Of a stretch of 46,852 nt of DNA, positions 4,560 through 24,153 are shown one piece after another; position 1 is the stretch's first letter; each line of letters starts with the position of its first letter. Below the pieces are notes generated by a model, which made no database searches, had not been told where the DNA came from, and saw only the letters and a list, made by a program, of their open reading frames with translations. A program made the position numbers and the translations under genes. Source of the DNA: an uncultured Eggerthellaceae bacterium (GTDB lineage: Bacteria; Actinomycetota; Coriobacteriia; Coriobacteriales; Eggerthellaceae); assembly GCA_905234635.1 (NCBI GenBank), contig CAJOJB010000001.1, positions 1 through 46,852 of the forward strand. The letters are read 5' to 3'.

Positions 4560-4631
4560 AACCATGACACGGCGAAACATGTTTTCTTCTCTAAAGTCAT
4601 GCCAGAAGTCACAGCAGGGAAAGGACGAGCA

Positions 4632-5387: not shown

Positions 5388-5438
5388 ACGAAGTGCTGCC
5401 TGAAAGCTTTTGTATTACTGCGAGGATACAATAAACGA

Positions 5439-7345: not shown

Positions 7346-7424
7346 CGTGGCGGCATGGACATGGCAGTACAGATATGGAAAAGACAGTGCAGCGTAAGCA
7401 CGGGCGAGGCGGCAAAGTAAAAAC

Positions 7425-8195
7425 ATGACGCACGAACGCGACATACTCGTTTTTGGAGGCACGGCCGAAGGGCGTCAGCTGGTTGAATGGCTCAACGCGC
7501 GCGGCACCTGCCATGTCGTCGCGTGCACGGCCACTGAATACGGCGCAAGCCTGCTGCCTGGCGGCGAACACGTACAAGTTTTGCAAGGCCCCCTTTCGGC
7601 TGAACAAAAACAGCAGCTCATGGATGAACACAACTTCGCGTGTATCGTAGATGCCACGCACCCCTTCGCCATGCATATTTCTGAAAGCGTTGCCGCCTTG
7701 GCAGCCAACCATGGCGTGGACCTGCTGCGCATCGAACGCGAACAAATCGAAAGCGGCCATTGGATAGGTGTCGCAAGCGCCGAAGAAGCAGCGGCCTACC
7801 TTGCTGGCACCACAGGAAACATCTTGCTAACCACGGGAAGCAAGGACCTGGCTACCTTTACGCAAGCCATCCCTGGCTTTGAAACGCGCCTTTGGGTGCG
7901 CGTGCTGCCCGTGCAAGAATCCTTGACACACGCCGCGCAACTGGGTATTCCTACCGACCACATTATTGCCATGCAAGGCCCATTTACCCAAGCCTTCAAT
8001 AGTGCGCTTGTTCGCGAACTCAACATTGCCCACCTGGTTACGAAACAGTCGGGTACAACAGGCGGTTTTGCCGAAAAAGTTGCCGCGGCAGATGAATGCA
8101 ATATCGAACTCGTCGTCATAGTACGCCCTGCGCAAGAAGCGGGCCTTAGCCTTGAAGACGCAAAAAGAGAACTGGAGAAGCGTTATGGTTTCTAA
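7425..8195 (+). CDS. cbiJ: Precorrin-6A reductase
   Basis: ILVFGGTAEGRQLVEWL, DATHPFAMHISESV, ILLTTGSKDL. Confidence 0.92.
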   Translation: MTHERDILVFGGTAEGRQLVEWLNARGTCHVVACTATEYGASLLPGGEHVQVLQGPLSAEQKQQLMDEHNFACIVDATHPFAMHISESVAALAANHGVDLLRIEREQIESGHWIGVASAEEAAAYLAGTTGNILLTTGSKDLATFTQAIPGFETRLWVRVLPVQESLTHAAQLGIPTDHIIAMQGPFTQAFNSALVRELNIAHLVTKQSGTTGGFAEKVAAADECNIELVVIVRPAQEAGLSLEDAKRELEKRYGF

Positions 8196-9495
8196 GGTTT
8201 ATATTGTCGGATGCGGTATGGGCAACCTCGGCACCTTAACTTTGGCTGCACAAAATGCCATAGCAGCGTCACAGCTGCTTATTGGTGCCCCCCGTCTGCT
8301 CGAGCAATTCGAACACGACGCAGCCGAAAAGCTGCCCTTAATAGCAAGTGAAGAAATCGCAGAAGCCCTGCGCACTTCATCGGCGCCTGTGACAAGCATC
8401 CTTATGAGTGGCGACATTGGGTTTTATAGCGGCGCCACTAAGCTTTACTCCCTCCTGGAAGCAATGGAGGGTCTTGAAATTGAAAGTATACCTGGCATTT
8501 CGTCACTCACATATTTCTGTGCCAAGTTGCACACCACCTGGCAAGACGCCTTCCTGGTTTCAGCCCATGGACGCCCCCATAATGCCCTGGGTGCCATTCA
8601 AAGCCATGCAAAGACCTTCCTGCTTACGGGTGGCGACACCCTTTGCTCCGACATCTGCCAGGCCATGGTGGAACGTGGCTTGGGCGACTGCACGGTTGCC
8701 GTTGGCGAGCGTCTTTCCTACGACGACGAACGCATTACGCGCGGCACGGCAACAGAACTGGCTGGTCGGAAATTTGACGGACTGGCGGTCATGCTCGTTG
8801 AAAATCCTGCTCCTGTCGACCATGCCATTTCGTCCCCCTACCTAGACGATGAAGCTTTCGAGCGCGGCAATGTGCCCATGACCAAAGAAGAAGTGCGCGA
8901 ACTGGCCGTGTGCAAGCTGCGAATTGAAGCCGCCCACACGGTCTGGGATATTGGCGCGGGCACGGGTTCGGTAACAGCCGAATTGGCACGCGCTGCCTTC
9001 GAGGGTCAAGTTTTCGCTATTGAAAAAAACAACGACGCCATTGCTTTAATCGAAGCAAACAAGCAGCGCTTGAACCTGCCTCACATCCGTGTGGTTGCGG
9101 GCGAAGCACCCCTGGCCCTTGCTGGCCTGCCCGCACCCGACCGCGTATTCGTGGGTGGTTCTTCGGGCAAACTGGAAGACATTCTGCGCACGGCTCTGGA
9201 AGCCAACAAGCAGGTGCGTTTTTGCATTACGGCCATTACACTGGAAACCCTGTCCGATGCCCTGCGCTGCATCGAAACCCTGGGGCTGAGCAACGTTGAC
9301 ATCGTGCAATTGAGCTTCGCAAAGAGCAAAAACGTGGCCGACTACCACATGATGACAGGCGCCAACCCCATCTATCTGGTAAGCGCCACGGGACCCGATT
9401 TTGACGCAAGCCAAAATCCTGGGGCCCGTACGTCTTGCGCCACTACGTCCAGCACCACTGGACCCTGCACTACCGAACCTGAAGGTGGGAAATAA
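8185..9495 (+). CDS. cbiET: Fused CbiE-CbiT precorrin-6Y C5,15-methyltransferase/decarboxylase
   Basis: N-terminal methylase VYIVGCGMGNLGTLT; CbiT domain VWDIGAGTGSVTAELA, FVGGSSGKLEDIL. Confidence 0.92.
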   Translation: MVSKVYIVGCGMGNLGTLTLAAQNAIAASQLLIGAPRLLEQFEHDAAEKLPLIASEEIAEALRTSSAPVTSILMSGDIGFYSGATKLYSLLEAMEGLEIESIPGISSLTYFCAKLHTTWQDAFLVSAHGRPHNALGAIQSHAKTFLLTGGDTLCSDICQAMVERGLGDCTVAVGERLSYDDERITRGTATELAGRKFDGLAVMLVENPAPVDHAISSPYLDDEAFERGNVPMTKEEVRELAVCKLRIEAAHTVWDIGAGTGSVTAELARAAFEGQVFAIEKNNDAIALIEANKQRLNLPHIRVVAGEAPLALAGLPAPDRVFVGGSSGKLEDILRTALEANKQVRFCITAITLETLSDALRCIETLGLSNVDIVQLSFAKSKNVADYHMMTGANPIYLVSATGPDFDASQNPGARTSCATTSSTTGPCTTEPEGGK

Positions 9496-9496
9496 C

Positions 9497-10873
9497 GTGA
9501 CCAGCGCATCTGCACCCCGCTTCCTTGTTGCCGCCACGTCGAGCGGCAGCGGCAAGACCACTATCGCCTGTGGCCTGATGCGCGCCCTTTCGCGCAGAGG
9601 CATGGCTGTCCAAGCATGCAAGTGCGGCCCCGACTACATTGACCCCATGTTCCACCGTCGCGTGTTGGGCACCCCATCACGCAACTTGGACCTGTTTTTT
9701 GCCGACGAAAACACCGTGTGCGAACTAGTGGCAGAAGGCAGCCGCAACGCCAACATCACCGTAATTGAAGGCGTCATGGGTTACTACGATGGCATAGCTT
9801 CGGGCAGTGACGCCTCGTCCTATGCACTCGCACATGCCACCAACACGCCCGCCATCCTGGTAGTCGAAGCACACGGGCGGGCGCTTTCGGTGGCTGCTGA
9901 AGTAGCGGGCTTTGCAGGGTTCCGACAGCCTTCGCATGTGGCGGGCGTTATTGTCAATCGTTGCACGAAAGGGTACTACCCCCGCCTGAAAAGCATGATT
10001 GAAACCGAAACGAGCATTCCTGTCTTGGGCTATGTTCCAGCACTGGACGACGCGCATTTGGAAAGCCGCCATTTGGGACTGGTTACGGCCGACGAAGTGG
10101 CAGACCTGCAAGCAAGGATTGACCGCGTGGCCAGCACGCTCGAAGAAACAGTCGACCTGGATGCGCTTATAGCACTTGCACAGGCAGCACCAAACCTGTC
10201 GTACGAGCCTCGCACGCTGCCCCAAACTCTAGAAAACCCCGTACGCATTGCCATTGCACGCGATGAATCGTTTAGTTTTTATTACGACGACACCCTGCGC
10301 ATGATGCAGCAACTCGGCGCAGAGCTGGTCGATTTTTCACCCCTGCATGACGCAGTGCTCCCAGAAAATATTGGAGGCTTATATCTGGGCGGCGGCTACC
10401 CCGAATTGCACGCTGCAGCGCTTTCTGCAAACACGAGCATGCGTGAAAACATCCGCTCGGCCATTGCGCAGGGTCTGCCCACCATTGCCGAATGCGGTGG
10501 CTTCATGTACCTGCATGAAAGCATGGAGGACGCAAACGGTACCCCCTGGCCCATGGTGGGTGCCATAAAAAGCCGCTCTTACAAATTGGGTAAACTTGAA
10601 CGCTTTGGCTACATACGCATTACGGCACGCGAAGACAACCTGCTTTGCTCGGCGGGTGAAAACCTGCCCGCCCATGAATTCCATTATTGGGACAGCGAAA
10701 ACCCCGGCAGCTGCTTTCACGCACAGAAGCCGCAAAGCAGCCGCAACTGGAACTGCGCCTTTGCCACTCCTACACTTTACGCAGGCTACCCACACCTGTA
10801 CCTGTACGCATGCCCTACGGCCATCAAGCGCTTCTTGGACACTTGCGCCCGATACAAGGATGCCAGTCGATGA
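9497..10873 (+). CDS. cbiA: Cobyrinate a,c-diamide synthase
   Basis: GTG start; FLVAATSSGSGKTTIACGLMRAL, KCGPDYIDPMFH, GGLYLGGGYPE, IAECGGFMYL. Confidence 0.93.
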   Translation: MTSASAPRFLVAATSSGSGKTTIACGLMRALSRRGMAVQACKCGPDYIDPMFHRRVLGTPSRNLDLFFADENTVCELVAEGSRNANITVIEGVMGYYDGIASGSDASSYALAHATNTPAILVVEAHGRALSVAAEVAGFAGFRQPSHVAGVIVNRCTKGYYPRLKSMIETETSIPVLGYVPALDDAHLESRHLGLVTADEVADLQARIDRVASTLEETVDLDALIALAQAAPNLSYEPRTLPQTLENPVRIAIARDESFSFYYDDTLRMMQQLGAELVDFSPLHDAVLPENIGGLYLGGGYPELHAAALSANTSMRENIRSAIAQGLPTIAECGGFMYLHESMEDANGTPWPMVGAIKSRSYKLGKLERFGYIRITAREDNLLCSAGENLPAHEFHYWDSENPGSCFHAQKPQSSRNWNCAFATPTLYAGYPHLYLYACPTAIKRFLDTCARYKDASR

Positions 10874-11835
10874 TTCATCTGGCTGCGCTTTTCGTTGGCT
10901 TTGGGCTTGACCTGTTGTTGGGCGATCCGCACGGGATGCCCCACCCCATTCGCGCTATCGGAAAACTCATCGAGGTAAGCGAGCGCATACTGCGTCGCGT
11001 CTTCCCCGCCACGCCTGCAGGTGAACGAGTGGCGGGCGTCGTGCTTGTGGTGGTAGTTGCAGTCCTTTCTACGACAATCGCAGCTATCCTTCTGTGGGTA
11101 AGCTACCGCATAAACCTGTGGCTTGGCTTTGCGTTGGAAGCCGTGCTCTGTTCCTTCATGCTGGCCAGCCGTTCCTTGCGCGACGAAAGCATGAAGGTGT
11201 CCACCGCTCTTAAGACCAAGGGGGTCAACGCTGCACGCCGCGCTGTTTCGATGATAGTGGGGCGCGACACCGAAAACCTCGACGAAGAAGGCGTGCTGCG
11301 CGCCACCGTGGAAACCGTGGCGGAAAACACCTGCGATGGCGTGGTGGCACCCATCCTTTTCATGGCCATGGGCGGTGCCCCCGCGGGCGTGCTCTACAAA
11401 GCCGTCAATACCATGGATTCCATGGTGGGCTACAAAAACGACCGCTACCAGTATTTTGGAACGGCGGCGGCGCGAATCGACGACCTATTCAATTTCATTC
11501 CTGCGCGAGTAAGCGGCCTGCTTATGTGTGTCATGGCGCGTTTGGTGGGCCTGAATACAGCTGGTGCTTGGCGCATTTTCAAGCGCGACCGTCGCAATCA
11601 CGCTTCGCCTAATTCGGCACACACCGAAGCAGCCTGTGCAGGTGCCTTGGGTGTACAACTAGCGGGCCCGACTAGCTATTTTGGCAAGGTGGCAGACAAG
11701 CCTTTTATCGGCGACAATACACGCCCCATTGAAGTGGACGACGTGGCGCGCGCGAACAAGCTTATGCTGGCAACTGCCGTGAGCGCCTTGCTTATTTCGA
11801 GTATCCTTATGATTGTGGTTTATCGCATTATCTAG
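10870..11835 (+). CDS. cbiB: Adenosylcobinamide-phosphate synthase CbiB/CobD
   Basis: GLDLLLGDPHGMPHPIRAIGKLI; VETVAENTCDGVVAPIL; MVGYKNDRYQYFG. Confidence 0.93.
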   Translation: MIHLAALFVGFGLDLLLGDPHGMPHPIRAIGKLIEVSERILRRVFPATPAGERVAGVVLVVVVAVLSTTIAAILLWVSYRINLWLGFALEAVLCSFMLASRSLRDESMKVSTALKTKGVNAARRAVSMIVGRDTENLDEEGVLRATVETVAENTCDGVVAPILFMAMGGAPAGVLYKAVNTMDSMVGYKNDRYQYFGTAAARIDDLFNFIPARVSGLLMCVMARLVGLNTAGAWRIFKRDRRNHASPNSAHTEAACAGALGVQLAGPTSYFGKVADKPFIGDNTRPIEVDDVARANKLMLATAVSALLISSILMIVVYRII

Positions 11836-11843
11836 GAACGGGC

Positions 11844-12926
11844 ATGATGGATCGGTTCGAACATGGGGGAAACATTTACGCGCATGAAGGCGTGTTGGAC
11901 TACTCTGCCAATTTGAACCCCTTGGGCGTGCCCGATTCCGTAAAGCAGGCCCTTGCGCAGTCTGTTGATTCTTTTGGCGTCTACCCCGACCCCCACTGCC
12001 GTGCCCTCACGCAGGCCATAGCGCAGTTCGAAGGCGTCGACGCTGCCTGGGTGCTGCCAACCGCGGGGGCAACCGACGCTATCACGCGCGTCTGTCTTGC
12101 GGTAAAACCTGCGCATGCCCTGGTATGCGCGCCCAGCTATTCGGGCTACGAACAGGCGCTTGAACAGGTAGGGGCAACGGTCGAACACCACGCCTTGCGC
12201 GAAGAAGAAAACTTCCAGGTAACCGCCCGCATTCTTAACGACGTCGACAGCGAAATCGACCTGGTCTTTTTAGCAAACCCCAACAATCCCACGGGTGCGC
12301 TGCTCGACTGCGACATCCTTATTGACGTGCTTGATGCCACCCGGCGCTGCGGTGCGGTAGTTGTGCTCGACGAATGCTTTGTCGATCTCACGTCACAGGC
12401 GGGCAGCACCGAGCTGCTTGGTGGCTATGACAACCTGGTCATCGTGAAAGCGCTTACAAAAACTTTTGCCCTCGCAGGCGTGCGCGCAGGCTACGCGCTC
12501 TGCTGTAATGCGGACTTGCTTGGGCGTATGCGCGAGCTTGGGCAGACGTGGGCCGTATCGACTCCGGCACAAGTTGCTGGCATAGCTGCCCTTCAAGAAA
12601 GGGACTATGTTGAACTTGCCAAGAAGCTGGTAGCCCATGAACGAGAACGCCTGGTGGACGCACTGGAAAGTTATGGCATGCAGGTAGTGCCTGGCTGCGC
12701 CAACTTCATCATGTTCAAAGCCCCCCAGGGGGGATCCGCACCTTCTAGTGGGACACCGGTACCGTCCCCACCGTCCCCACTTTATGATGCGATGCTTGAG
12801 CGAGGCATACTTATTCGCCGCTGCGAAAACTTCCATGGCCTCGACGGCAGCTGGTACCGTATTGCCGTGCGTGCGCCAGAAGAAAATACGCGCTTTCTCG
12901 TTGTGCTTCAGGAGGTCTTTGCATGA
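11844..12926 (+). CDS. Threonine-phosphate decarboxylase / histidinol-phosphate-type aminotransferase of the cobalamin pathway
   Basis: HGGNIYAHEGVLDYSANLNPLGVP; ANPNNPTGALLD; VKALTKTFALAGVRAGY; contains a Pro-rich insert encoded by a REP-like palindrome. Confidence 0.88.
   Translation: MMDRFEHGGNIYAHEGVLDYSANLNPLGVPDSVKQALAQSVDSFGVYPDPHCRALTQAIAQFEGVDAAWVLPTAGATDAITRVCLAVKPAHALVCAPSYSGYEQALEQVGATVEHHALREEENFQVTARILNDVDSEIDLVFLANPNNPTGALLDCDILIDVLDATRRCGAVVVLDECFVDLTSQAGSTELLGGYDNLVIVKALTKTFALAGVRAGYALCCNADLLGRMRELGQTWAVSTPAQVAGIAALQERDYVELAKKLVAHERERLVDALESYGMQVVPGCANFIMFKAPQGGSAPSSGTPVPSPPSPLYDAMLERGILIRRCENFHGLDGSWYRIAVRAPEENTRFLVVLQEVFA
12748..12780. repeat. REP-like palindromic sequence inside the cobalamin aminotransferase gene
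   Basis: gtgggacaccggtaccgtccccaccgtccccac, with tandem accgtcccc. Confidence 0.65.
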
Positions 12927-14425
12927 CAGCTAAGCCCATAATGATTCAAGGCACCATGTCGGGCGCCGGCAAAAGTTTGCTCGTAGCAGGCCTGTGTCGC
13001 ATTTTCGCCCAGGATGGCTACAAGGTCGCACCCTTCAAGTCGCAAAACATGGCGCTCAATTCTTTTATTACAACCGAGGGCATGGAAATGGGCCGCGCTC
13101 AAGTGGTCCAGGCCGAAGCAGCGGGCATCGAAGCCGAAGTGGCCATGAACCCCGTTCTGCTCAAACCCACTACCGACGTTGGCAGCCAGGTTATCGTGCA
13201 GGGCAGGCCGCTTAAAACCATGTCGGCGGTCGACTACTACGCCTTCAAACATGAACTGAAGCCTGTCATCATGGAGTCGTACAACAATCTGGCCGAACGC
13301 TTCGACATTATTGTTATCGAAGGTGCGGGAAGTCCTGCCGAAGTTAACCTGAAACAAGACGATATCGTTAATATGGGCATGGCCAAGATGGTCGCTTCGC
13401 CCGTGCTGCTTGCAGGCGACATAGACCGTGGTGGCGTGTTTGCCCAGCTTATTGGCACTATGATGCTTCTTGATCCCAGCGAACAGGCCCTCGTAAAAGG
13501 CTCTATCGTCAACAAATTCCGCGGCGACCCTGAAATCCTGCGCCCTGGACTTACTATCCTGGAAGAGCGTATGGGCGTGCCCGTCGTAGGCGTTGTGCCC
13601 TATATGCAGGTCGATATCGACGACGAAGACAGCATGTCCGACCGCTTAAGTGCGCGTTCACGCGGTGGCGTGGTTGACATTGCCGTAGTGCGCCTGCCTA
13701 AGATTTCCAACTTCACCGACTTTATCGCGCTGGAAGCCGCAGCGGGCGTCGATGTGCGCTACGTGGCTAAGGTAAGCGAATTGGGTAAGCCCGATCTTAT
13801 TATTCTGCCGGGCACGAAGTCCACCCTGGCCGACCTGAAATGGCTGCGGGAAAGCGGCCTTGAAACAGCCATCCTGAAACTCGCCCATGCGGGCACGCCC
13901 ATCTTTGGCATTTGCGGTGGCTACCAAATGCTCGGCCGCAGCATTGCCGACCCCCACGGGGTTGAAGGCGGTGGCGAAATGGCGGGCATGGATCTGCTCC
14001 CTGTTAATACGGTGTTCGAACCTGAAAAACATACCGTACAGTCGCAGGGCACGGTGCAAACCGTGGGCGGCGCTTTGGCAAGCCTTTCGGGCACGACAAT
14101 TGCCGGCTACGAAATTCATATGGGCACCACAACCCTCGAAAACGACACGCCCTTTGTTTTCCTAGAAAGCGACGGCACAACAAAGGATGACGGCTGTGCC
14201 TACGGGAACGCCTACGGCACCTACGTGCACGGCTTTTTCGACGAGCCTCAGGCAACGAAAGCTCTTATTGCTTCGCTCCTTTCGGCCAAAGGCCTGGACG
14301 CGCACGCTGTTGAAGCGGTCGACATGGCTGCCTACAAACAGGAACAGTACGATACGCTGGCCAGGGGCCTACGGGAAAGCCTGGACATGGATTTGGTCTA
14401 TCGAATTTTGGAGGAAGGCGTATGA
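12923..14425 (+). CDS. cbiP: Cobyric acid synthase
   Basis: MIQGTMSGAGKSLLVAGLCRIF, FKSQNMALNSF, DIDRGGVFAQL, GICGGYQMLG. Confidence 0.95.
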   Translation: MTAKPIMIQGTMSGAGKSLLVAGLCRIFAQDGYKVAPFKSQNMALNSFITTEGMEMGRAQVVQAEAAGIEAEVAMNPVLLKPTTDVGSQVIVQGRPLKTMSAVDYYAFKHELKPVIMESYNNLAERFDIIVIEGAGSPAEVNLKQDDIVNMGMAKMVASPVLLAGDIDRGGVFAQLIGTMMLLDPSEQALVKGSIVNKFRGDPEILRPGLTILEERMGVPVVGVVPYMQVDIDDEDSMSDRLSARSRGGVVDIAVVRLPKISNFTDFIALEAAAGVDVRYVAKVSELGKPDLIILPGTKSTLADLKWLRESGLETAILKLAHAGTPIFGICGGYQMLGRSIADPHGVEGGGEMAGMDLLPVNTVFEPEKHTVQSQGTVQTVGGALASLSGTTIAGYEIHMGTTTLENDTPFVFLESDGTTKDDGCAYGNAYGTYVHGFFDEPQATKALIASLLSAKGLDAHAVEAVDMAAYKQEQYDTLARGLRESLDMDLVYRILEEGV

Positions 14426-15081
14426 CCAGCAAGCTCGAACAGCTCACCTTCGTCAAACCTGCTGACATCGAAGCGCGCAGCTTTGAAATAATCGGCGAAG
14501 AACTGGGCAACACCACCTTCCCCGACGCGCACCATGAATCGGTGGTCAAGCGCGTTATCCATACGTCGGCCGATTTCGACTATGCCAAAAACCTGGTCTT
14601 TTCCCACGACGCCGTGGCGCACGGCATCAAAGCCCTGGCGGGCGGCACGTCCATTGTTACCGACACCAAGATGGCAGCCGCTGGCATCAATAAAAGCGTG
14701 CTGGGCAGCTTTGGCGGCGAAGTGCTTAACTTTATTTCCGACGCCGACGTAGCAGCCGAAGCTAGGGAACGCGGTCTTACGCGTTCAGCGGTTTGTATGG
14801 AACGTGCCGCGGCCCTGGGCGAGCCCTTGGTGTTCGCCATTGGCAATGCCCCCACCGCCTTGGTACAGCTTTACCAAATGATTAGCGAAGGCGCCATGGT
14901 CAAGCCAGCGCTTATCATTGGGGTGCCCGTGGGTTTTGTAAACGTTGTCGAAAGCAAAGAACTTATCCTGGACTTGGACGTGCCATCCATTGTGGCACGC
15001 GGGCGCAAGGGCGGTAGTAACGTGGCCGCCAGCATTTGCAATGCACTCCTCTATATTGCGTCCAACGACCGAAGAGAATAG
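14422..15081 (+). CDS. cbiC: Cobalt-precorrin-8 methylmutase
   Basis: IGNAPTALVQLYQMI; IGVPVGFVNVVESKELI; RGRKGGSNVAASICNALL. Confidence 0.94.
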   Translation: MTSKLEQLTFVKPADIEARSFEIIGEELGNTTFPDAHHESVVKRVIHTSADFDYAKNLVFSHDAVAHGIKALAGGTSIVTDTKMAAAGINKSVLGSFGGEVLNFISDADVAAEARERGLTRSAVCMERAAALGEPLVFAIGNAPTALVQLYQMISEGAMVKPALIIGVPVGFVNVVESKELILDLDVPSIVARGRKGGSNVAASICNALLYIASNDRRE

Positions 15082-15180
15082 TGCTGTTCGGGCGGCAAAG
15101 GCAAGCACTTTCCTGCTCTGCGCTCCTGCGGTTTACAATGAAGGCCTGGGTAAGTGTTTAACACAAACGAAAGGGCATGT

Positions 15181-16236
15181 GTGAACGAACTTGAACTGCA
15201 TATAGAACCTGCCGACAAGGCGGCAGCGCAGCGTGCCCAGGACAAGTGGAACGCGGTAGCCAAGCCCCTTGGTTCGCTCGGCTTGCTCGAAGACCAGGTT
15301 ATAAAAATCGCCGCGCTCACAGGAAGCGAACAGGTCGACATAAGCAAGCGCTGTGCGGCCATCCTCTGCGCTGACAATGGCGTCGTGGCGCAGGGCGTTT
15401 CCCAGAGCGGCCCCGACGTTACCACCATTGTGGCGAGCTGCATTGCCCAAGGTATTTCTTCAGTCTGCAAGATGGCAGAACCTATCGCCCTCGATTGCAT
15501 CGCTTACGACTTTGGCATGCTCAAGCCGTCCCCCGAAGCAGGGGTGTGCGACAAGTGCATCGCACGCGGCACGGGCGACATAAGCCAAGGCCCCGCCATG
15601 ACGCGCGAACAAGCCCTTGCCGCTATTACCGCAGGCATCGACGTCGTACGCGAGCTGAAAGACGAAGGCTACCAGCTTATTGCAACTGGCGAAATGGGTA
15701 TTGGCAATACAACGACATCGACCGCTATGGCCTGCGTCTTTACCGGCAACGCACCCAAAGACCTGGTGGGACGTGGGGCGGGACTTTCCGACGAGGGGCT
15801 CAGCCGTAAGCTGCGGGCCATCGAAGAAGCCATCGCGGTCAACCAGCCCCATGCCGACGACACTATCGATGTACTTGCCAAGCTGGGTGGCTTTGACATT
15901 GCAGGTATGTGCGGCATGTTTTTAGGGGGCGCCCTATACCGCGTGCCCGTGATTATCGACGGCGTTGTTTCAGCTGTTGCAGCATATTGTGCAGCGCGCA
16001 TTAGTCCTGCCTGCACTATTACCATGCTGCCTTCCCATGTCTCGAGCGAACCAGCTGCTTCAATATTGCTGGAGCGCATGGGGCTCACCCCGCCCATTAA
16101 TGCAGGCATGCACCTGGGCGAAGGCACGGGCGCAGCATGCCTGGTCCCCTTGCTGGACATGGCGCTTGCGCTCTACCATGGGTCAACCTTTGAAGACTAT
16201 GGCATGGACGCCTATAAGGAAACAGGAAAGAAGTAA
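15181..16236 (+). CDS. cobT: Nicotinate-nucleotide-dimethylbenzimidazole phosphoribosyltransferase
   Basis: KWNAVAKPLGSLGLLEDQVIKIAALTG; ATGEMGIGNTTTSTAM; HLGEGTGAACLVPLLDMAL; GTG start preferred over the upstream ATG. Confidence 0.92.
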   Translation: MNELELHIEPADKAAAQRAQDKWNAVAKPLGSLGLLEDQVIKIAALTGSEQVDISKRCAAILCADNGVVAQGVSQSGPDVTTIVASCIAQGISSVCKMAEPIALDCIAYDFGMLKPSPEAGVCDKCIARGTGDISQGPAMTREQALAAITAGIDVVRELKDEGYQLIATGEMGIGNTTTSTAMACVFTGNAPKDLVGRGAGLSDEGLSRKLRAIEEAIAVNQPHADDTIDVLAKLGGFDIAGMCGMFLGGALYRVPVIIDGVVSAVAAYCAARISPACTITMLPSHVSSEPAASILLERMGLTPPINAGMHLGEGTGAACLVPLLDMALALYHGSTFEDYGMDAYKETGKK

Positions 16237-16238
16237 TT

Positions 16239-16877
16239 GTGCAACTCGTTATGATGCGCCATGGGGCGACAAGGGCCAACGAAGAGCGCCGCTATGCAGG
16301 CATGCGCACTGACGACGCCTTAACCGATGGTGGTCGTGCCCAATGTTTGGCTGCGGGTGTCTTCCCCACAGTTGAACGCGTCTACACAAGTCCCCTGCTT
16401 CGCGCGCAGCAAACGGCACGGATCTGCTTTCCCCAGGCAGAAATAATTGCATGGCCTGGTCTTGAAGAATATGACTTTGGTGCCTTTGAAGGTCACACCG
16501 CAGACGAAATGACCAACGACGTAGACTATCGCGCCTGGTTGGACAGCGGTTGCACTTCGCGCTGCCCCCAGGGCGATTCCCGCGTCAGTTATATAGAACG
16601 CAGCAATTCTGCCCTTGTCCAACTACTACAGGAAGCTGCACATCGCGGCGAAGACCAGGTAATTGTCGTGGGGCACAACGGCACCATCATGGCCGCCTTC
16701 CATGCCTTTGCCACAAGCGAACAAGGACGACGCCTCAACCGTGCCGACGTGGACTATTTTAACTGGCATGTGCCCAACGCCCAAGGCTATACCGCTCAAG
16801 CAATCTTTGGTGCACAGGACAGCAGCGCACAGCTCACCTTCACCCAGTGCAGGCGGTTCGAAACTCTTCCTTTATAG
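16239..16877 (+). CDS. cobC: Histidine phosphatase family protein, probable alpha-ribazole phosphatase
   Basis: VMMRHGATRANEERRYAG, SPLLRAQQTA, VVGHNGTIMA; end of cobalamin operon. Confidence 0.8.
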   Translation: MQLVMMRHGATRANEERRYAGMRTDDALTDGGRAQCLAAGVFPTVERVYTSPLLRAQQTARICFPQAEIIAWPGLEEYDFGAFEGHTADEMTNDVDYRAWLDSGCTSRCPQGDSRVSYIERSNSALVQLLQEAAHRGEDQVIVVGHNGTIMAAFHAFATSEQGRRLNRADVDYFNWHVPNAQGYTAQAIFGAQDSSAQLTFTQCRRFETLPL

Positions 16878-16887
16878 GGAAATTCGA

Positions 16888-17517
16888 TTAAAGGAATTCG
16901 ACAATCTTTTCGGCGGCAGCACCCGCGTCTTCAGTGTAAGCGTCTGCACCAATTTCGTCGCAGAAGGCCTGATTAATGGGAGCGCCGCCAACCATAATTT
17001 TTACCTGGTCGCGCAAGCCCGCCTCTTCAAAGGCCTTCACGGTGTCGCTCATGGAAACCATGGTCGTGGTAAGCAAAGCAGACAGGCAGACCACCTTGCA
17101 TTCGGGGTGTTCTTCCACATGCTTGACGAAGGCCTCAGGGGCAACGTCGACACCAAGGTCGGTCACTTCAACGCCCTTGCCTTCAATCATCATGCGAACC
17201 AGATTCTTGCCAATGTCATGCATGTCGCCCTTCACGGTGCCGATGCAGGCAAAGCCAGCAGGTTCAGCGCCTTCCGCGGCCAAAACGGGTTTCAAAACTT
17301 CCGTGCCGGCAACCATGGAACGAGCAGAAATAAGCATTTCGGGGACGAAGCATTCACCCCGCGAAAAGCGTTCGCCAATTATGTCCATGGCAGAAATAAG
17401 AGCATCGAGCAGCGCCTGCGGATCTTCGCCCGCGTCCAAGCCCTGCTGCACCATGGGGCCAACTTCTTTGCGCTTACCAGCTATAACGGCGTCGCGGATA
17501 TCGTCAAACAAAGACAT
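16888..17517 (-). CDS. Corrinoid (B12-binding) protein of a methyltransferase system (MtaC/MtvC-like)
   Basis: GTVKGDMHDIGKNLVRMMIEGKGVEVTDLGVDV (DxHxxG B12-binding motif); N-terminal four-helix cap. Confidence 0.93.
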   Translation of the reverse strand: MSLFDDIRDAVIAGKRKEVGPMVQQGLDAGEDPQALLDALISAMDIIGERFSRGECFVPEMLISARSMVAGTEVLKPVLAAEGAEPAGFACIGTVKGDMHDIGKNLVRMMIEGKGVEVTDLGVDVAPEAFVKHVEEHPECKVVCLSALLTTTMVSMSDTVKAFEEAGLRDQVKIMVGGAPINQAFCDEIGADAYTEDAGAAAEKIVEFL

Positions 17518-17529
17518 TGTTATCTCTTT

Positions 17530-17634
17530 TCTTCATAGGTGGCCACCCTTGTTCACAGGCGGTCGCACCGCATTCATGGGCAATCGTCCCGTGTTCATGG
17601 GTGGCCGCCCCGTGTTCATGGGTGCTTCTCCCTT
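17530..17634. repeat. Degenerate 21-bp tandem repeat, 5 units, upstream of the corrinoid protein gene
   Basis: tcttcataggtggccaccctt / gttcacaggcggtcgcaccgc / attcatgggcaatcgtcccgt / gttcatgggtggccgccccgt / gttcatgggtgcttctccctt. Confidence 0.85.
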
Positions 17635-17664
17635 GATTTTCGTTGCTCTGATTATAGTACAAGC

Positions 17665-18195
17665 CTAATAACAGATACACCCAGTAAAACTTATGGTGTT
17701 TGGCCCATGGTTGTAGGGCACCCCGGCTTCGGTGCACACTTCGGTCACCACGAAACCTGCTGCTTCCAGCGACACCACCATGCGGTCGGGAAAACGACAA
17801 GCTGCATGGGGATAGGTGCATTCCGTACACAGCATGCAGGGCCCGGCGCCCAAGGCCATAAACGAAAGGCCTTCGCCGGATAAAGCTTCTACAAGACTAA
17901 CAAGGCGCTTGTTCTGCGTGCTTTCCGCAGTGCCCATGGCTTCGATGTCAAATTCGTCTTCGAGCTGCCCCACCGTCTGCACCACCATGCAGTTTTCAAA
18001 GGCGTGTACGCGCTTTTCGTAGTCTTCGACTTCGCCGCAAGCAGGCGGGCACGACCACGATTTCCCGTATGCCTGACACAAATTCGCAGCACACATATCG
18101 CGTACTTCAGGGTGCGTGTGCAAGGCGGAAGTCTTGCAATGACCAATTGCGTCGAAGCCCTGTTCATGTGCCAAGGTTTCGATGCGTTCCTTCAT
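17665..18195 (-). CDS. Cys-rich DUF2284-like predicted metal-binding protein
   Basis: 13 Cys in 176 aa; YGKSWSCPPACG, GPCMLCTECTYPHAACRFPDRM, FTGCICY. Confidence 0.8.
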   Translation of the reverse strand: MKERIETLAHEQGFDAIGHCKTSALHTHPEVRDMCAANLCQAYGKSWSCPPACGEVEDYEKRVHAFENCMVVQTVGQLEDEFDIEAMGTAESTQNKRLVSLVEALSGEGLSFMALGAGPCMLCTECTYPHAACRFPDRMVVSLEAAGFVVTEVCTEAGVPYNHGPNTISFTGCICY

Positions 18196-18218
18196 TACAC
18201 TTCCCTGTTCGAAGACTG

Positions 18219-18230
18219 CCTGGTGCCAGG
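18219..18230. repeat. Short perfect palindrome CCTGGTGCCAGG (REP-like) between the MeTr and DUF2284 genes
   Basis: Direct reading; lies in the ~39-nt intergenic gap. Confidence 0.5.
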
Positions 18231-18234
18231 GCCA

Positions 18235-19038
18235 TTAATCCTGCTTAGGACCAAAAATGCCTTCGCGATAAGCCGTCAGGTATTCCATGCAATATTCGTC
18301 GTTGCCGACAAGGGCGTCGGTTGCATAAACAATACCCATCATGTCGCGGTTGAGCGGGTCGATAATGGCAGAGTCCATGCCAGCGTTCATGGCCAAAACC
18401 ATGAAGCCCATGTTGATAGCCTTGCGCACGGGCAGGCCAAAGCTGATATTGGAAAGGCCTGACGTAATATGAATGTCGGGGCACAGCTCGCGCACCTCGC
18501 GGCAAACCTGCGTAAAAACCGTGCAACTTTCTTCGTTGGTACCCAAGGTTTCTACAAGCGGGTCAACAAAAACTTGGTCGGGCTTAACACCGTATTCGTC
18601 CATCTTTTCCAGCAGGCGCTTAAACGCATTAATGCGGCCCTCGGCGGTTGAAGGAATGCCATCTTCGTCGTCGAGCATGGCAACCACTTTCCATTCGGTG
18701 CCTGCAATAAGCGGAAAGATTTTTTCGACCTTATCACCCGCGATAGAAATTGAATTAATCATGCCAGGGCGATCGACGAACTTCATAGATTCAACCAGAA
18801 TATCGGCACTGGGGGAATCCAGGGCAATGGGGGTGTCGGTGGCTTCCTGGATAAGACCAACCATCCACTCCATAATGTCCAAGGCGCCTTCGTTGGTGGC
18901 AGGGCAACAGTCGAGGTAGGCCGCACCAGCTTCAGCCTGTGCCTTAGCAATTTCTTTGATGTATTCGCCATCGCGTTCTTCGATTGCCTGCCCCGTGCGG
19001 GGAACAAAACCGTTAATCTTTTCACCGATGATTATCAC
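18235..19038 (-). CDS. Methyltetrahydrofolate:corrinoid methyltransferase (pterin-binding MeTr family)
   Basis: VIIIGEKINGFVPRTG; LDSPSADILVESM; GLSNISFGLPVRKAINMGFMVLAMNAGMDSAIIDPLN; GTG start with an upstream GAAGGA. Confidence 0.9.
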   Translation of the reverse strand: MIIIGEKINGFVPRTGQAIEERDGEYIKEIAKAQAEAGAAYLDCCPATNEGALDIMEWMVGLIQEATDTPIALDSPSADILVESMKFVDRPGMINSISIAGDKVEKIFPLIAGTEWKVVAMLDDEDGIPSTAEGRINAFKRLLEKMDEYGVKPDQVFVDPLVETLGTNEESCTVFTQVCREVRELCPDIHITSGLSNISFGLPVRKAINMGFMVLAMNAGMDSAIIDPLNRDMMGIVYATDALVGNDEYCMEYLTAYREGIFGPKQD

Positions 19039-19057
19039 GTTATATCGTCCTTCTTCC

Positions 19058-19099
19058 CTTTTAGTAGCAACGCGCACGCTTTTAGTAGTAACTTACACG
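19058..19099. repeat. Two direct 21-bp repeats upstream of the MeTr gene
   Basis: cttttagtagcaacgcgcacg / cttttagtagtaacttacacg. Confidence 0.7.
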
Positions 19100-19119
19100 C
19101 GCCCGCTGGCACCCTCTCT

Positions 19120-19977
19120 TTAAAGCCCCGCAGCCTGCTTGGCTGCTTCAACCGCATGGCTTACCAGCACCGCCGTGGTTACCGAACCAACACCCCCTGG
19201 AACAGGGGTAATGGCATCCACGATAGGTTCAACGTCGTCAAAAATAACATCGCCACACGGCTTGGATTTTTCTTCACTCCAACCAAAGCCGACATCGATA
19301 ACGGTTTGGCCAGCCTTGAAGTATTCGGCGCCGATGGTTTCCACCCTGCCAACCGCAACCACCACAATGTCGGCTTCGCGCGTCACAGACGGCGCATCGA
19401 CGGTCTTGGTATGGCACGTAGTAACCGTGGCATTGGCGTCCATAAGCATCATGGAAACAGGCTTGCCAATAACGAGCGAACGGCCAATAACGGCAGCGCG
19501 CTTGCCTGTAACATCGATATCGTAATGCTTGAGAATTTCCATACACGCCTGAGCCGTGCAGGGGGCGTAGCCTTCGTTCTTACCCGTAAACACGTGCCCC
19601 AAGGAAGCGTCCGTGGCCGCGTCCACGTCTTTGGCAGGTGCGAGGGCGTCGCAACAAGCTGCTTCGTCGAGCTGTGCAGGCAGAGGTCGAAGCATGAGCA
19701 CACCATGCACGCTTGTATCCGCGTTCAGGTCTTCGATGGCGGCGAGCATGCTTGCCTGGTCCACGTCTGCCGGCAATACAACGTTCTTAACCGCAACACC
19801 GGCAGCTTCGCAGTGCTTGACGGCTGCACGTTCGTAAGACAGGTCGTCGTCGCGTTCACCCACGCGCAAAATTGCGAGCGTTGGCACCACGCCCTTGGCC
19901 TTACAGGCTTCCACCACAGCAGAACTGCGCTGCGCCAGCGCTTCGGCAACGGGAGCACCTTTCAAAAGAGACGCCAT
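19120..19977 (-). CDS. folD: Methylenetetrahydrofolate dehydrogenase/cyclohydrolase FolD
   Basis: GVLMLRPLPAQLDE; AVIGRSLVIGKPVSMMLMDANATVTTCHTKT; PVPGGVGSVTTAVLVSHAVEAA. Confidence 0.93.
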   Translation of the reverse strand: MASLLKGAPVAEALAQRSSAVVEACKAKGVVPTLAILRVGERDDDLSYERAAVKHCEAAGVAVKNVVLPADVDQASMLAAIEDLNADTSVHGVLMLRPLPAQLDEAACCDALAPAKDVDAATDASLGHVFTGKNEGYAPCTAQACMEILKHYDIDVTGKRAAVIGRSLVIGKPVSMMLMDANATVTTCHTKTVDAPSVTREADIVVVAVGRVETIGAEYFKAGQTVIDVGFGWSEEKSKPCGDVIFDDVEPIVDAITPVPGGVGSVTTAVLVSHAVEAAKQAAGL

Positions 19978-19980
19978 AAG

Positions 19981-20607
19981 CTACTCCTTTATAGCATTCA
20001 TAACGGAAGCACTAATTGCTTCGGCTTTGGGAATATATTTGTTAAGCAGAGCGTCGACCTCGCCTTCAACTTCTTCAGCATAAGCACGGTCTTGCAGGGT
20101 TTTCGTATTGATGAACACGTTCATGGCAGCTGCTTCGAGGGCCGCACGGCACAACGAAGCGCCACAGCCTGCGTCGGACACAATAAGGCGGGAACACTTC
20201 GCTGCCATTTCTTCAAGTAAGTCAATGGTATTGCAAACCAGGCGCACCATCTCTAAGGGGCAGACCAGAGCAGCCTTGGTGCAGACTTCAAGCGTTTCGG
20301 CGCGCATAGGGTCTTCCTTGGGAATGCCATAGGCTTGAGCAAGCGGAGCAAAGGCCGCCGCGTCTTCGTCCATCAAATCAACCAGGCGCGCGCGAATGGT
20401 TTCAGCTTCGGCCAGCATGCGCTGCATGTCTGCTTCTACGCTGGCAAACTTTTCCTTGCCTGCGGTGAACACGCCTGCCATAGAACAGAGCGCCGCTCCC
20501 AGCGCACCAACATAGGCGGCAGCACCGCCGCCGCCTGGTACGCTCTTCTTCGCGGCAAGTTCAGTTGCAAAATCTTTGCAACTAATATCTGCCAACAAGT
20601 CTGCCAT
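19981..20607 (-). CDS. fchA: Methenyltetrahydrofolate cyclohydrolase (FchA/formiminotransferase-cyclodeaminase family)
   Basis: KKSVPGGGGAAAYVGALGAALCSMAGVFT; SDAGCGASLCRAALEAAAMNVFINTK. Confidence 0.88.
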   Translation of the reverse strand: MADLLADISCKDFATELAAKKSVPGGGGAAAYVGALGAALCSMAGVFTAGKEKFASVEADMQRMLAEAETIRARLVDLMDEDAAAFAPLAQAYGIPKEDPMRAETLEVCTKAALVCPLEMVRLVCNTIDLLEEMAAKCSRLIVSDAGCGASLCRAALEAAAMNVFINTKTLQDRAYAEEVEGEVDALLNKYIPKAEAISASVMNAIKE

Positions 20608-22286
20608 TAGAACAGGCCCACAATTCTGCCGTCTTTCTTCACATCGATGCGTTCAGCAGCAGGACGCTTAGGTAGACCGGGCATGGTCATAATCTCACCA
20701 GTCAGAGCCACAATAAAGCCAGCACCCGCGCTCACCTTCAAGTTACGCACGGTAATGCGGAAGTTCTTCGGAGCGCCCAGCTTGGTTTGGTCGTCGGTAA
20801 AGCTGTATTGGGTCTTCGCCACGCAGATGGGAAGCTTGTCCAAACCCAGCTCTTCCAGCTGCTTCATTTGCTTCATGGCATTAGGCGTGAAGTCCACACC
20901 GTCGGCACGGTAGATCTTCTTGGCAATGTCGTTGAGCTTCTTGGTGATGGAGTCGTTCACGTTGTAGCTGAAGCGGAAGTTGCTCTTCTTGTCGCACACA
21001 CGCACCACTTCTTCTGCCAAGTCAATGGCACCAGCGCCACCCTTTGCCCAATGCTGGGCCAGAACGGCATTCACGCCCAGGCGCTTGCACTTCTTCTGGA
21101 CCAGATCGAGTTCCTTCTTGGTGTCTGTCGGGAACGCATTGATAGCAACGACGGCTGGCAAACCATAGACCTTCTGGATATTGCCCACGTGCTGGAGCAG
21201 GTTAGGCAGACCGGCTTCCAGGGCCTTCAGGTTTTCTTTGTTCAGTTCGTCCTTCGGCACGCCGCCGTTGTACTTCAGGGCGCGCACGGTTGCCACGATA
21301 ACCACAGCAGAAGGCTTCAGGCCAGCAGCGCGGCACTTGATGTCCAGGAACTTTTCAGCACCCAGGTCGGCACCGAAACCGGCTTCGGTAATGACATAGT
21401 CGGCCATCTTCATGGCGGTCACCGTTGCCTGTACGGAATTGCAGCCATGGGCAATGTTGGCGAAGGGGCCGCCATGCACAAAGGCCGGATTGTTTTCCAA
21501 GGTTTGGACCAGATTCGGCTTGATGGCGTCCTTGAGCAGGGCCGTCATGGCGCCTTCGGCCTTCAGCTGATGTGCCGTAATGGGCTTACCCTTGCGGCTG
21601 TAAGCGACAATAATATTGCCCAGGCGCTTCTTCAGGTCGTCCAGGTCGGATGCCAGGCAGAACACAGCCATAATTTCCGAAGCCACGGTAATGTCGAAGC
21701 CGTCTTCGCGCACCACGCCGTCGGCAGCGGTACCCAAGCCGTCCACAACGTTGCGTAGCTGGCGGTCGTTCATGTCCACGCAGCGGTGCCAGGTAATGTT
21801 GTTCAAATCGATATCGAGTTCGTTGCCTTGCTTGATGTGATTGTCCAGCATGGCTGCAAGCAGGTTATTGGCAGCACCAATAGCATGGAAGTCTCCCGTA
21901 AAATGCAGGTTAATGTCTTCCATAGGAACAACCTGGGCGTAGCCGCCACCAGCAGCACCGCCCTTTACGCCAAATACTGGACCCAGGGAAGGTTCGCGCA
22001 AAGCCAGCATGGAGCTTTTGCCCAGCTTGCACAGAGCGTCATGCAGGCCAACAGACGTGGTTGTCTTGCCTTCGCCGGCAGGAGTAGGGTTAATAGCGGT
22101 CACCAAAACAAGCTTGGCCTTCTTGCGTTTATTTTCATAGGAATGGATGTCGACCTTAGCCTTATAGTGGCCATAAGGCTCGCACGTACCCCAATCGATA
22201 CCAGCTTTTTCTGCCACTTCCTGAATGGGCAGCATGGTAGCTTCTTGGGCGATTTCAATGTCTGACTTGTACTGCTTGGTGGCCAT
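20607..22286 (-). CDS. fhs: Formate-tetrahydrofolate ligase
   Basis: [67 protein letters not shown]. Confidence 0.96.
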
Positions 22287-22378
22287 ATTATTCCTTTCCT
22301 TGAGGCTTGGTAACTCGATGTTTCTATTGTAACGACCAAAGGGCTCCATGTCGCGCCTGGCATGCCCTTAGTTGGTAA

Positions 22379-22534
22379 ATGAACACGCAAAGTACGCTTT
22401 TGGCAAGGTCTAAAAAGCGCATGAGAAAGAGCCAGGGTAAACGCTGGAAAGATATCGGAAAACTTCTCAAAGGGGACGGCAAAAGAGTTCTTAAAGGAAC
22501 CACAGAAAAACACCTGAAGAACTGGTGCAGCTAG
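22379..22534 (+). CDS. Possible 51-aa very basic microprotein ORF opposite the surrounding operon
   Basis: MNTQSTLLARSKKRMRKSQGKRWKDIGKLLKGDGKRVLKGTTEKHLKNWCS; no strong ribosome-binding site. Confidence 0.2.
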   Translation: MNTQSTLLARSKKRMRKSQGKRWKDIGKLLKGDGKRVLKGTTEKHLKNWCS

Positions 22535-22536
22535 TC

Positions 22537-24153
22537 TTATGAATAGTCCCTTGGTGCGTCCTTGGGCGGCTGTATGCCATGCTTGGTTTCTTCGTCGGGC
22601 TCCACACCAGGCAGCCACTGACGACGCGCATAGCCGTCCAAACCCGTACAGTTTGCACCCCAGGGACTCTTAAAGATATTGGCCCAATTAACGGGAGGAA
22701 CAATGTAGGATTGCAGTGCGTCTGTTTCGCCGTGGGGCTTCAGACGATGGTAAGCCTTAAACCAAATGCAGTATTCTTCCCCTGGGTACACTTCGCACCA
22801 ACCGTCTTTTGATCCACCGCACGGACCATTGCGTTGACACTTCGGACACTTCACCATAGGGCAGGTATATGCCGTGGCATACAGACCGCAATCACCACAG
22901 TCCATGCATCCATACAGGGCGGTCTTACCCAGGTGCTCCAGGCCATGTTTGCGGTTGCGCCCCTTGGTAGATTCCAGATTTTGCTCACGCGACACAAACA
23001 TGCCATTAATGCCCTTTTGCGGGCTAAATATGAAACGATGCGCAAAACGGGAAAGGCCGTAGTTGCCCTTAATCTTCTTACCCGTATAGGTTTCGGTTAG
23101 ACCCGCAGGTTTGCGCAGATTCAAACCCGTTGCTTCGTCTTTCTTGTAGTAATAGAAACATCCGTCCTGGGGGTACTCAAATACGGAAAGGTGGTCCTGC
23201 CAGTTAGCTTCGAATTCGTCTGCTAGAGCTAAAACACGCGTAACATTTTCAGGGGTACAACCCACGCCCCCAAGGTGGACGCCCGCACAACCAAGACCCT
23301 TGGCAATGGCTACCATTTTCGCAGCACGCTGCAGGCGCGCTTCAAGGCCCTTGTCTTCGGAATGGTCGCGCTCGTCTTTGAGCACCCGGAGGAATTCGTC
23401 GGTTACGTCGCAGCCTGGAATGCTTCCACGGTTCATGGCGCCACCGTGACCAGCATTGATAAGGTAGATGTTTGCAATAAAGGGAACCATAATGCCGTGG
23501 TCTTCCATAAGCCAAAGCATTTCTTGGAGCTTGCGTGCAGAAAAGCCAACCTGGCTCACGACAAACTGGGCGCCCGCTGCAACTTTCTTTTTCAGCTTGA
23601 ACAGCTGTGTCATGGTTTCGGCTTCGGTCCATTTGAATGGCGAAACTACGCAACCAGGAAAGAAGGTACCTGGTGCCGTACGTTCGATTTCGCCCTTCAT
23701 ATTAGGATAACCCATGCCACGATTAAAGGACTGGATATGCTGTGTCATGGTAACGGAATCCAGGTCGAACACGGGGCGCGGCTGCCCCATCCATCCCATG
23801 CCGTTGTAGTCGCCTGTCATGACCAGTAGGTTTTCGATGCCGGCATGTTGCATGGCATAATACTGGGATTCTGCCTGGTTGCGATTACGGTCTTTACAGG
23901 TGAAATGTACGAGCGGCACGATGCCTTCGTCGAGCAGTTGCTTGCCAAAGGCGTCGGACCCGAGGGCGGGATTACCACTGGGACAGTCGGTAATAGAAAC
24001 CGCATGAATGCGTCCCGTAGCCCACAGGCCACGCGCGTCTTCAAGCAGCGCTTCTTGGGGCTTTTCGGCACCGCTTCCGCGCCCAGGAATGATTTCGCAA
24101 GTGACAACGAATTCACCTGCTTCCAGTGCTTTCCTGAACTTGTTTTGAACCAC
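22537..24153 (-). CDS. metF: Methylenetetrahydrofolate reductase with fused MetV-like C-terminal domain
   Basis: N-terminus VVTCEIIPGRGSG...LLVMTGDYN (MetF); C-terminus YGCMDCGDCGLYATAYTCPMVKCPKCQRNGPCGG (MetV-like Cys-rich). Confidence 0.9.
   Translation of the reverse strand: MVQNKFRKALEAGEFVVTCEIIPGRGSGAEKPQEALLEDARGLWATGRIHAVSITDCPSGNPALGSDAFGKQLLDEGIVPLVHFTCKDRNRNQAESQYYAMQHAGIENLLVMTGDYNGMGWMGQPRPVFDLDSVTMTQHIQSFNRGMGYPNMKGEIERTAPGTFFPGCVVSPFKWTEAETMTQLFKLKKKVAAGAQFVVSQVGFSARKLQEMLWLMEDHGIMVPFIANIYLINAGHGGAMNRGSIPGCDVTDEFLRVLKDERDHSEDKGLEARLQRAAKMVAIAKGLGCAGVHLGGVGCTPENVTRVLALADEFEANWQDHLSVFEYPQDGCFYYYKKDEATGLNLRKPAGLTETYTGKKIKGNYGLSRFAHRFIFSPQKGINGMFVSREQNLESTKGRNRKHGLEHLGKTALYGCMDCGDCGLYATAYTCPMVKCPKCQRNGPCGGSKDGWCEVYPGEEYCIWFKAYHRLKPHGETDALQSYIVPPVNWANIFKSPWGANCTGLDGYARRQWLPGVEPDEETKHGIQPPKDAPRDYS

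Follow-up and report, generated by a model that had tools for sequence, protein, structure and literature searches.

The stretch analyzed here (the window; 46,852 nucleotides of contig CAJOJB010000001.1 from an uncultured Eggerthellaceae bacterium) carries an operon of seven head-to-tail genes on the minus strand, running from position 24153 to 16888. These are metFV, fhs, fchA and folD, followed by the genes for a methyl-tetrahydrofolate (methyl-THF):corrinoid protein methyltransferase (MeTr), a Cys-rich protein of the DUF2284 family, and a stand-alone corrinoid protein (CP). All seven gave clear family matches in profile searches of the window proteins (Table 1), bearing out the seven same-strand genes listed in a preliminary description made from the sequence alone. 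The DUF2284-like label and the count of 13 cysteines given there were also correct, and the data support a folate methyl branch that supplies a stand-alone corrinoid protein. We propose that the DUF2284 protein is probably an overlooked partner of RACE, the ATP-dependent activator of corrinoid proteins, because members of its family usually adjoin RACE in related bacteria.

Table 1. Features of the operon and of the adjacent cobalamin genes (window coordinates; E-values or bit scores of family matches)
Feature	Coordinates	Strand	Basis
metFV, fusion of methylene-THF reductase with a Cys-rich, MetV-like C-terminal domain (538 aa)	22537..24153	-	MTHFR PF02219 1e-17, PF12225/DUF5981 1.1e-25
fhs, formate-THF ligase	20607..22349	-	PF01268 2.6e-273; NF010030 above cutoff
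fchA, methenyl-THF cyclohydrolase	19981..20607	-	PF04961 3.6e-57; NF045657 under its cutoff
folD, methylene-THF dehydrogenase/cyclohydrolase	19120..19977	-	PF02882 and PF00763
MeTr, O-demethylase MTII/MtgA/MtgD type	18235..19077	-	PF00809; NF005719 315.6 bits (cutoff 259)
DUF2284, Cys-rich protein, 176 aa, proposed RACE partner	17665..18195	-	PF10050 1.2e-41, true member
CP, stand-alone corrinoid protein; has a B12 cap and a DxHxxG motif (GDMHDIG)	16888..17517	-	PF02310 5e-24, PF02607 5.8e-17
Tandem repeat (21 bp, degenerate) between DUF2284 and CP	17532..17624	.	TRF, 4.5 copies, 69% matches
Anaerobic cobalamin biosynthesis genes	3396..16877	+	CbiD, CbiG, TP_methylases, CbiA/CobQ GATase_3, CbiC, CobT-type DBI_PRT, histidine phosphatase (Pfam)

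The operon and its partners in the host genome

The genes fhs and fchA overlap by 1 bp, and the following gaps are short (fchA-folD 3 bp, folD-MeTr 42 bp, MeTr-DUF2284 39 bp). Wider gaps separate metFV from fhs (187 bp) and DUF2284 from CP (147 bp). Besides the tandem repeat in the latter gap, a second degenerate 21-bp tandem repeat, assigned to another intergenic gap of the operon, was found at 19058-19100.

The PDB entry nearest to MeTr was 4o0q (274 bits) and the solved structure nearest to CP was 1y80, both of which we take to be O-demethylase components. MeTr shared only 31% identity with the pterin domain of the fused methionine synthase MetH of a congener (G001), and CP shared 38.5% with the matching MetH module. 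CP, the sole PF02607 match in the host genome, scored ~183 bits as a protein of the pyl/MtgC/O-demethylase type versus 112 bits as MtaC; though stand-alone as previously described, it is closer to the former type than to the MtaC type assigned to it then.

The host metagenome-assembled genome is a 1.7-Mb draft in 132 contigs that is 81% complete. The earlier statement that RACE and MttB are lacking holds for the window but not for this genome. Contig C77 (5.8 kb) encodes a canonical RACE with Fer2, Raco_middle and RACo_C_ter domains (PF14574, 1.9e-74), adjoined by a convergent gene for a stand-alone homocysteine S-methyltransferase (HcyMT; 331 aa; PF02574, 2.5e-70). The best PDB match of this HcyMT was Thermotoga MetH (1q7m), and in sequence it shares 54.5% identity with the homocysteine domain of the G001 fused MetH. 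Most likely, it is the methyl-acceptor component that had been considered missing. Since it grouped with the copies of two same-genus genomes (G004 and G005) with a support of 100/100, C77 very probably belongs to the host lineage and contamination is unlikely. The same contig also holds a PF04071 Cys-rich protein (L001:3257-3595), followed by cobU- and cobS-like frames as read from the sequence. Proteins with this "Cys-rich small domain" recur near RACE, HcyMT or DUF2284 in loci L047, L050, L052, L054, L055, L059, L060, and L084; a short repeated peptide, NTDDSTMA, was noted in the cobU-like frame of L002.

Two pieces of an MttB-family gene (PF06253), both without in-frame stops, lie at the ends of contigs C61 (L131:11580-12260) and C121 (L132:1-372), and ABC genes resembling metNIQ come after the one on C61. 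Searches of the draft genome found neither a fused MetH (PF02607 and PF02574) nor MetE, no PF02965-type activator (family and profile searches), no DUF1638, and no CdhC, i.e. no sign of the CODH/ACS of the Wood-Ljungdahl pathway. The genome-wide search suggested with the preliminary description thus recovered RACE and MttB-type pieces, but not CdhC.

Judged by these identities, the set of methyl-transfer proteins in the host is chimeric, joining a MetH-like homocysteine module to a MeTr and a CP of the demethylase type, because HcyMT is much closer to its MetH counterpart than MeTr and CP are to theirs and because the latter two resemble 4o0q and 1y80. For the marine split enzyme, a corrinoid subunit of non-MetH origin has also been described (PMC12478193).

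Linkage of DUF2284 to RACE and corrinoid systems

The distribution of DUF2284 was followed in 61 related genomes, by family searches and in single stretches, and in 80 DUF2284 loci obtained by scanning named genomes with the DUF2284 alignment, blind to the neighbouring genes. These loci come from Eggerthellaceae, other Coriobacteriia, Oscillospiraceae, Lachnospiraceae, and others. RACE was located at most 600 bp from DUF2284 in 57 of the 80 loci, with ~0.2 expected by random placement. Within 6 kb, CP was found in 42 loci, a URO-D methyltransferase in 30, MeTr in 19, and HcyMT in 8; at least one of these five genes was present in 70 loci, which agrees with the linkage to corrinoid systems anticipated earlier. 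An N-terminal C-x5-C-x2-C 2Fe-2S motif was present in all 58 full-length RACEs of the DUF2284 loci and in the C77 RACE. Among the 61 relatives, RACE accompanied DUF2284 in 13 of 13 genomes (Fisher test, 4e-10, not corrected for the tree). In three of these relatives (G040, G047, and G052), DUF2284 adjoins a RACE other than the one linked to CdhC. The linkage pattern across loci indicates that DUF2284 follows systems with stand-alone corrinoid proteins. DUF2284 was not found in the viral contigs searched.

A clearer case than the incomplete host draft is offered by G007, a genome of the same family that is 98% complete. Here, RACE, folE, focA, MeTr, folD, fchA, fhs, metFV (70.7% identical to the window copy), CP, and DUF2284 lie within ~14 kb. 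Family searches of this genome yielded one RACE, one CP, one DUF2284, and a strong HcyMT match unfused to CP, but no MetE, CdhC or MTTB. The presence of the formate transporter gene focA in this stretch fits formate as the methyl source. In G004, DUF2284 and HcyMT share one 6-kb contig, and DUF1638, RACE and CP occur together on contig C22.

A fused MetH (PF02607 and homocysteine domain in one long frame) was detected in 23 of the 61 genomes, 21 of which also carry a PF02965-like protein of ~240 aa that adjoins metH in the cases inspected. DUF2284 was detected in 13 genomes from four families, and only one of them (G015) has a fused MetH as well. In all of the other 12, RACE is accompanied by an HcyMT match (E ≤ 2.1e-57) whose frame lacks the CP domain. 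By these counts, which are uncorrected for shared ancestry, two architectures largely alternate within one order: fused MetH with a PF02965-like activator, and a split synthase with RACE and DUF2284. Because split and fused forms are intermixed in the HcyMT tree, more than one switch between them is possible. The ~240-aa protein, which is divergent and has a C-terminal Cys cluster, gave profile matches in 27 of the 61 genomes; at L157:5220-5981 and in L043-L046, it lies between metF and a fused metH without an activation domain of its own.

Several further arrangements were noted around DUF2284. A fusion of a URO-D methyltransferase with a corrinoid domain occurs together with RACE and DUF2284 in the clostridial loci L075, L084, L113, L114, L118, and L122, and together with HcyMT in all of them except L122; all four genes cluster in L118 (Baileyella intestinalis), L113, L114, and L075. 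From their gene content, these clusters could possibly encode a direct donor-to-homocysteine methyl shuttle. The clostridial "Corr" proteins of 571-592 aa had been considered as MeTr-CP fusions, which was rejected, since they are URO-D-CP fusions. In Coriobacteriia, a gene for a ~680-aa hydantoinase/oxoprolinase-like (ASKHA-type) protein lies directly after DUF2284 or beside HcyMT (L050:10510-12552, with homologues in 12 loci, e.g. L047, L051-L055, L059, L060, L062, and L073). Its product, which matches the B12-mutase accessory protein GlmL very weakly, is possibly a second ATPase for corrinoid care. PucR-type regulators recur beside corrinoid clusters (L050-L055, L098, L106, L115, and L126), and a PocR/AraC-type regulator is found at L057:8474-9754. 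Finally, the DUF2284 locus L076:8837-10525 lacks corrinoid genes, and its neighbours resemble hydrogenase-maturation (Hyp) genes; the family may therefore have other redox uses.

The DUF2284 protein and the surroundings of the operon

Six cysteines (35, 40, 49, 120, 123, and 126) were invariant in 80 homologues; Cys133 was present in 79, and Cys 154, 173, and 53 were mostly kept. The resulting pattern, CxxCxxC-x6-C, is reminiscent of an Fe-S motif. When the AlphaFold2 model of the window protein (pLDDT 95) was compared with the PDB by Foldseek, ten chains of the epoxyqueuosine reductase QueG ranked first and reductive dehalogenases (RdhA) next, the best match having an E-value of 1.4e-3, a probability of 0.99, and a TM score of 0.48. 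QueG and RdhA again came first (best E 5.5e-3) for a second model (pLDDT 90) of a ~28% identical homologue that adjoins RACE in G040. QueG and RdhA both hold base-off cobalamin in a module of the nitroreductase type, next to a pair of [4Fe-4S] clusters (PMC4646009). DUF2284 may share with these class III cobalamin reductases (PMC4646009) the predicted fold and a CxxCxxC-type Fe-S motif, but it has only 176 aa and no significant sequence match to them. Comparison of the sequence profiles of DUF2284 and QueG gave a probability of 7.5% in hhalign, so homology at the sequence level is not significant. Because the profiles do not support homology, we treat the likeness as a lead and not as a classification.

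Searches of the PDB gave no believable sequence match of DUF2284 to any solved structure. The match to 3hiu (E 0.008) was rejected as chance, the Cys motif not being conserved in the alignment, and viral structures gave no useful match. No ASKHA ATPase domain was detected, PF10050 being the only family above chance among the 80 members. DUF2284 was also compared with DUF1638 and with the PF02965-like activator, and homology to either was rejected.

The cobalamin biosynthesis genes (Table 1) are convergent with the operon and end 10 bp from the CP gene. Riboswitch searches of the window and of contigs C77, C61, and C121 gave nothing at the gathering threshold; three weak matches near the operon were dismissed as chance, and consensus promoters or terminators were not above chance. 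Further along the window, at 27750-31748, a repeat-rich protein of 1332 aa with a Pro/Glu-rich tail and a C-terminal hydrophobic stretch is probably a surface protein.

Proposed pathway and alternatives

On balance, and with modest confidence, we favour a formate-fed split methionine synthase that is kept active by RACE, with DUF2284 as an Fe-S partner of RACE. Formate would be converted to methyl-THF by Fhs, FchA/FolD, and MetFV; MeTr would pass the methyl group to the Co(I) form of the stand-alone CP; and the C77 HcyMT would transfer it to homocysteine, giving methionine. RACE would use ATP to return accidentally formed Co(II) to Co(I), and DUF2284 would either deliver electrons to the 2Fe-2S domain of RACE or dock and hold the corrinoid during reduction. 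Gene content, domain identity, linkage, co-occurrence, and conserved cysteines are read at the sequence level, whereas we infer that flux runs in this direction, that methionine is made, and that DUF2284 acts in electron transfer or docking. A more specific version, in which DUF2284 is a miniature relative of QueG and reductive dehalogenases, serving across gut anaerobes as dedicated electron donor or corrinoid-docking partner of RACE and hence as a recurring, previously unrecognised second component of ATP-driven corrinoid reactivation, is offered tentatively and is rather unlikely to hold in full.

Split methionine synthases with RACE have already been described (PMC5764234, PMC12478193), and the host has their parts: stand-alone MeTr, CP, and HcyMT, together with RACE and without a detected fused MetH or MetE. 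The three-part synthase of Phaeobacter inhibens, which works with DUF4445 (RamA-like) and DUF1638, shares the stand-alone pterin-binding, corrinoid, and homocysteine proteins, the lack of a MetH activation domain, and a RACE-type activator (PMC5764234). The evidence that a RACE-type protein serves such a synthase comes from P. inhibens genetics, where DUF1638 was also needed, for reasons left unexplained (PMC5764234). Unlike in P. inhibens, MeTr and CP are encoded here in one operon with the formate-to-methyl-THF genes, in a gut anaerobe, and DUF2284 is present instead of DUF1638, to which it has no sequence relation although both occur in RACE-containing systems (PMC5764234). Because DUF1638 is absent from the host genome, the host system appears to be a variant and not the P. 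inhibens form. In Ruegeria pomeroyi, MtgBCDE acts both as methionine synthase and as glycine betaine demethylase; the host MeTr, CP, and HcyMT are MtgD-, MtgC- and MtgE-like, respectively, RACE corresponds to RamA, and the MttB-type fragments are possibly MtgB-like (PMC12478193). In the host, an MttB link is hypothetical, and DUF2284 is present instead of DUF1638; in G007, the operon occurs in a genome without an MTTB match. The four-component O-demethylases of acetogens (MTI, CP, MTII, and activating enzyme) have MeTr, CP, and RACE of the same type and share the methyl transfer between CP and THF, whereas the window operon lacks a donor methyltransferase (MTI), has a MetH-like HcyMT as the likely acceptor, and adds DUF2284 (PMC6739815). 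Fused MetH with a separate PF02965-like activator, as found in the same order (e.g. in G001), carries out the same net reaction with a homologous homocysteine domain, but its pterin and B12 modules are distant from those of the host and its activation system differs.

Several observations weigh against the proposal. RACE and HcyMT lie outside the window operon, MeTr and CP are closer to parts of demethylation systems than to those of MetH, MttB-type fragments exist in the host genome, and, with the draft incomplete, absences from that genome carry limited weight. RACE occurs without DUF2284 in four relatives (G013, G020, G023, and G059), and in 10 of the 80 loci no corrinoid-system gene was found near DUF2284. 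The fold likeness to QueG and RdhA is marginal and has no significant sequence support. Moreover, published activating enzymes run in vitro with artificial reductants, and therefore a partner is not always needed (PMC6739815).

The same parts could run in the catabolic direction, with an MttB/MtgB-type or other donor methyltransferase loading CP and MeTr passing the methyl group to THF for oxidation to formate, with ATP gained via Fhs. The PF06253 pieces, the metNIQ-like genes after one of them, and the closest structures of MeTr and CP would suit such a demethylation. Ruegeria uses one MtgC and one MtgD for both directions (PMC12478193). We nevertheless regard it as doubtful, since G007 has the operon without MTTB and no MTTB was found in 6 of the 13 genomes that have DUF2284 and RACE, in genome-wide searches that did not extend to the URO-D and MtvB donor types; the two directions may also coexist. 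Alternatively, DUF2284 could be a metal or corrinoid chaperone that loads CP and is not a redox partner of RACE. Its membership in a Cys-rich, "predicted metal-binding" family, the very weak matches of the second model to the B12 chaperones CblC and CblD, and the adjacent B12 synthesis genes point in this direction, but linkage is tightest to RACE and looser to CP, and the Cys pattern resembles an Fe-S motif, making this role unlikely.

A strict form of the activator idea in the preliminary description, by which DUF2284 would stand in for RACE as the only activator of the corrinoid protein, draws on the position of its gene between MeTr and CP. This form is highly improbable and fails the refutation test set out with that description, given the canonical RACE in the host genome, the presence of RACE in every DUF2284 genome and next to DUF2284 in relatives, and the lack of an ATPase domain match. 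The broader idea of participation in reactivation gains support from the same data. It is also very hard to credit that the operon supplies the methyl branch to a complete Wood-Ljungdahl pathway whose CODH/ACS was lost in assembly gaps. The gene content equals that branch, the draft is incomplete, and three genomes of the order (G040, G047, and G052) have strong CdhC matches, but neither the host nor five same-genus genomes have CdhC, and in those three genomes the CdhC-linked and DUF2284-linked RACEs are distinct.

Reduction of corrinoid Co(II) to Co(I) needs a potential below those of ferredoxin and flavodoxin; RACE provides the ATP step, and its physiological donor is named only by example, as ferredoxin or flavodoxin (PMC6739815). 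In a literature search that left out most subscription journals, the passages found that mention DUF2284 drew no link to RACE, and no mention of COG5423 was found. Given that coverage, the link between DUF2284 and RACE is likely, though not proven, to be the new part of the split methionine synthase proposed here. If correct, it would make the small Cys-rich DUF2284 family a testable candidate for the partner or electron donor of RACE, and the proposed pathway predicts that gut Eggerthellaceae without MetH or MetE would make methionine from formate.

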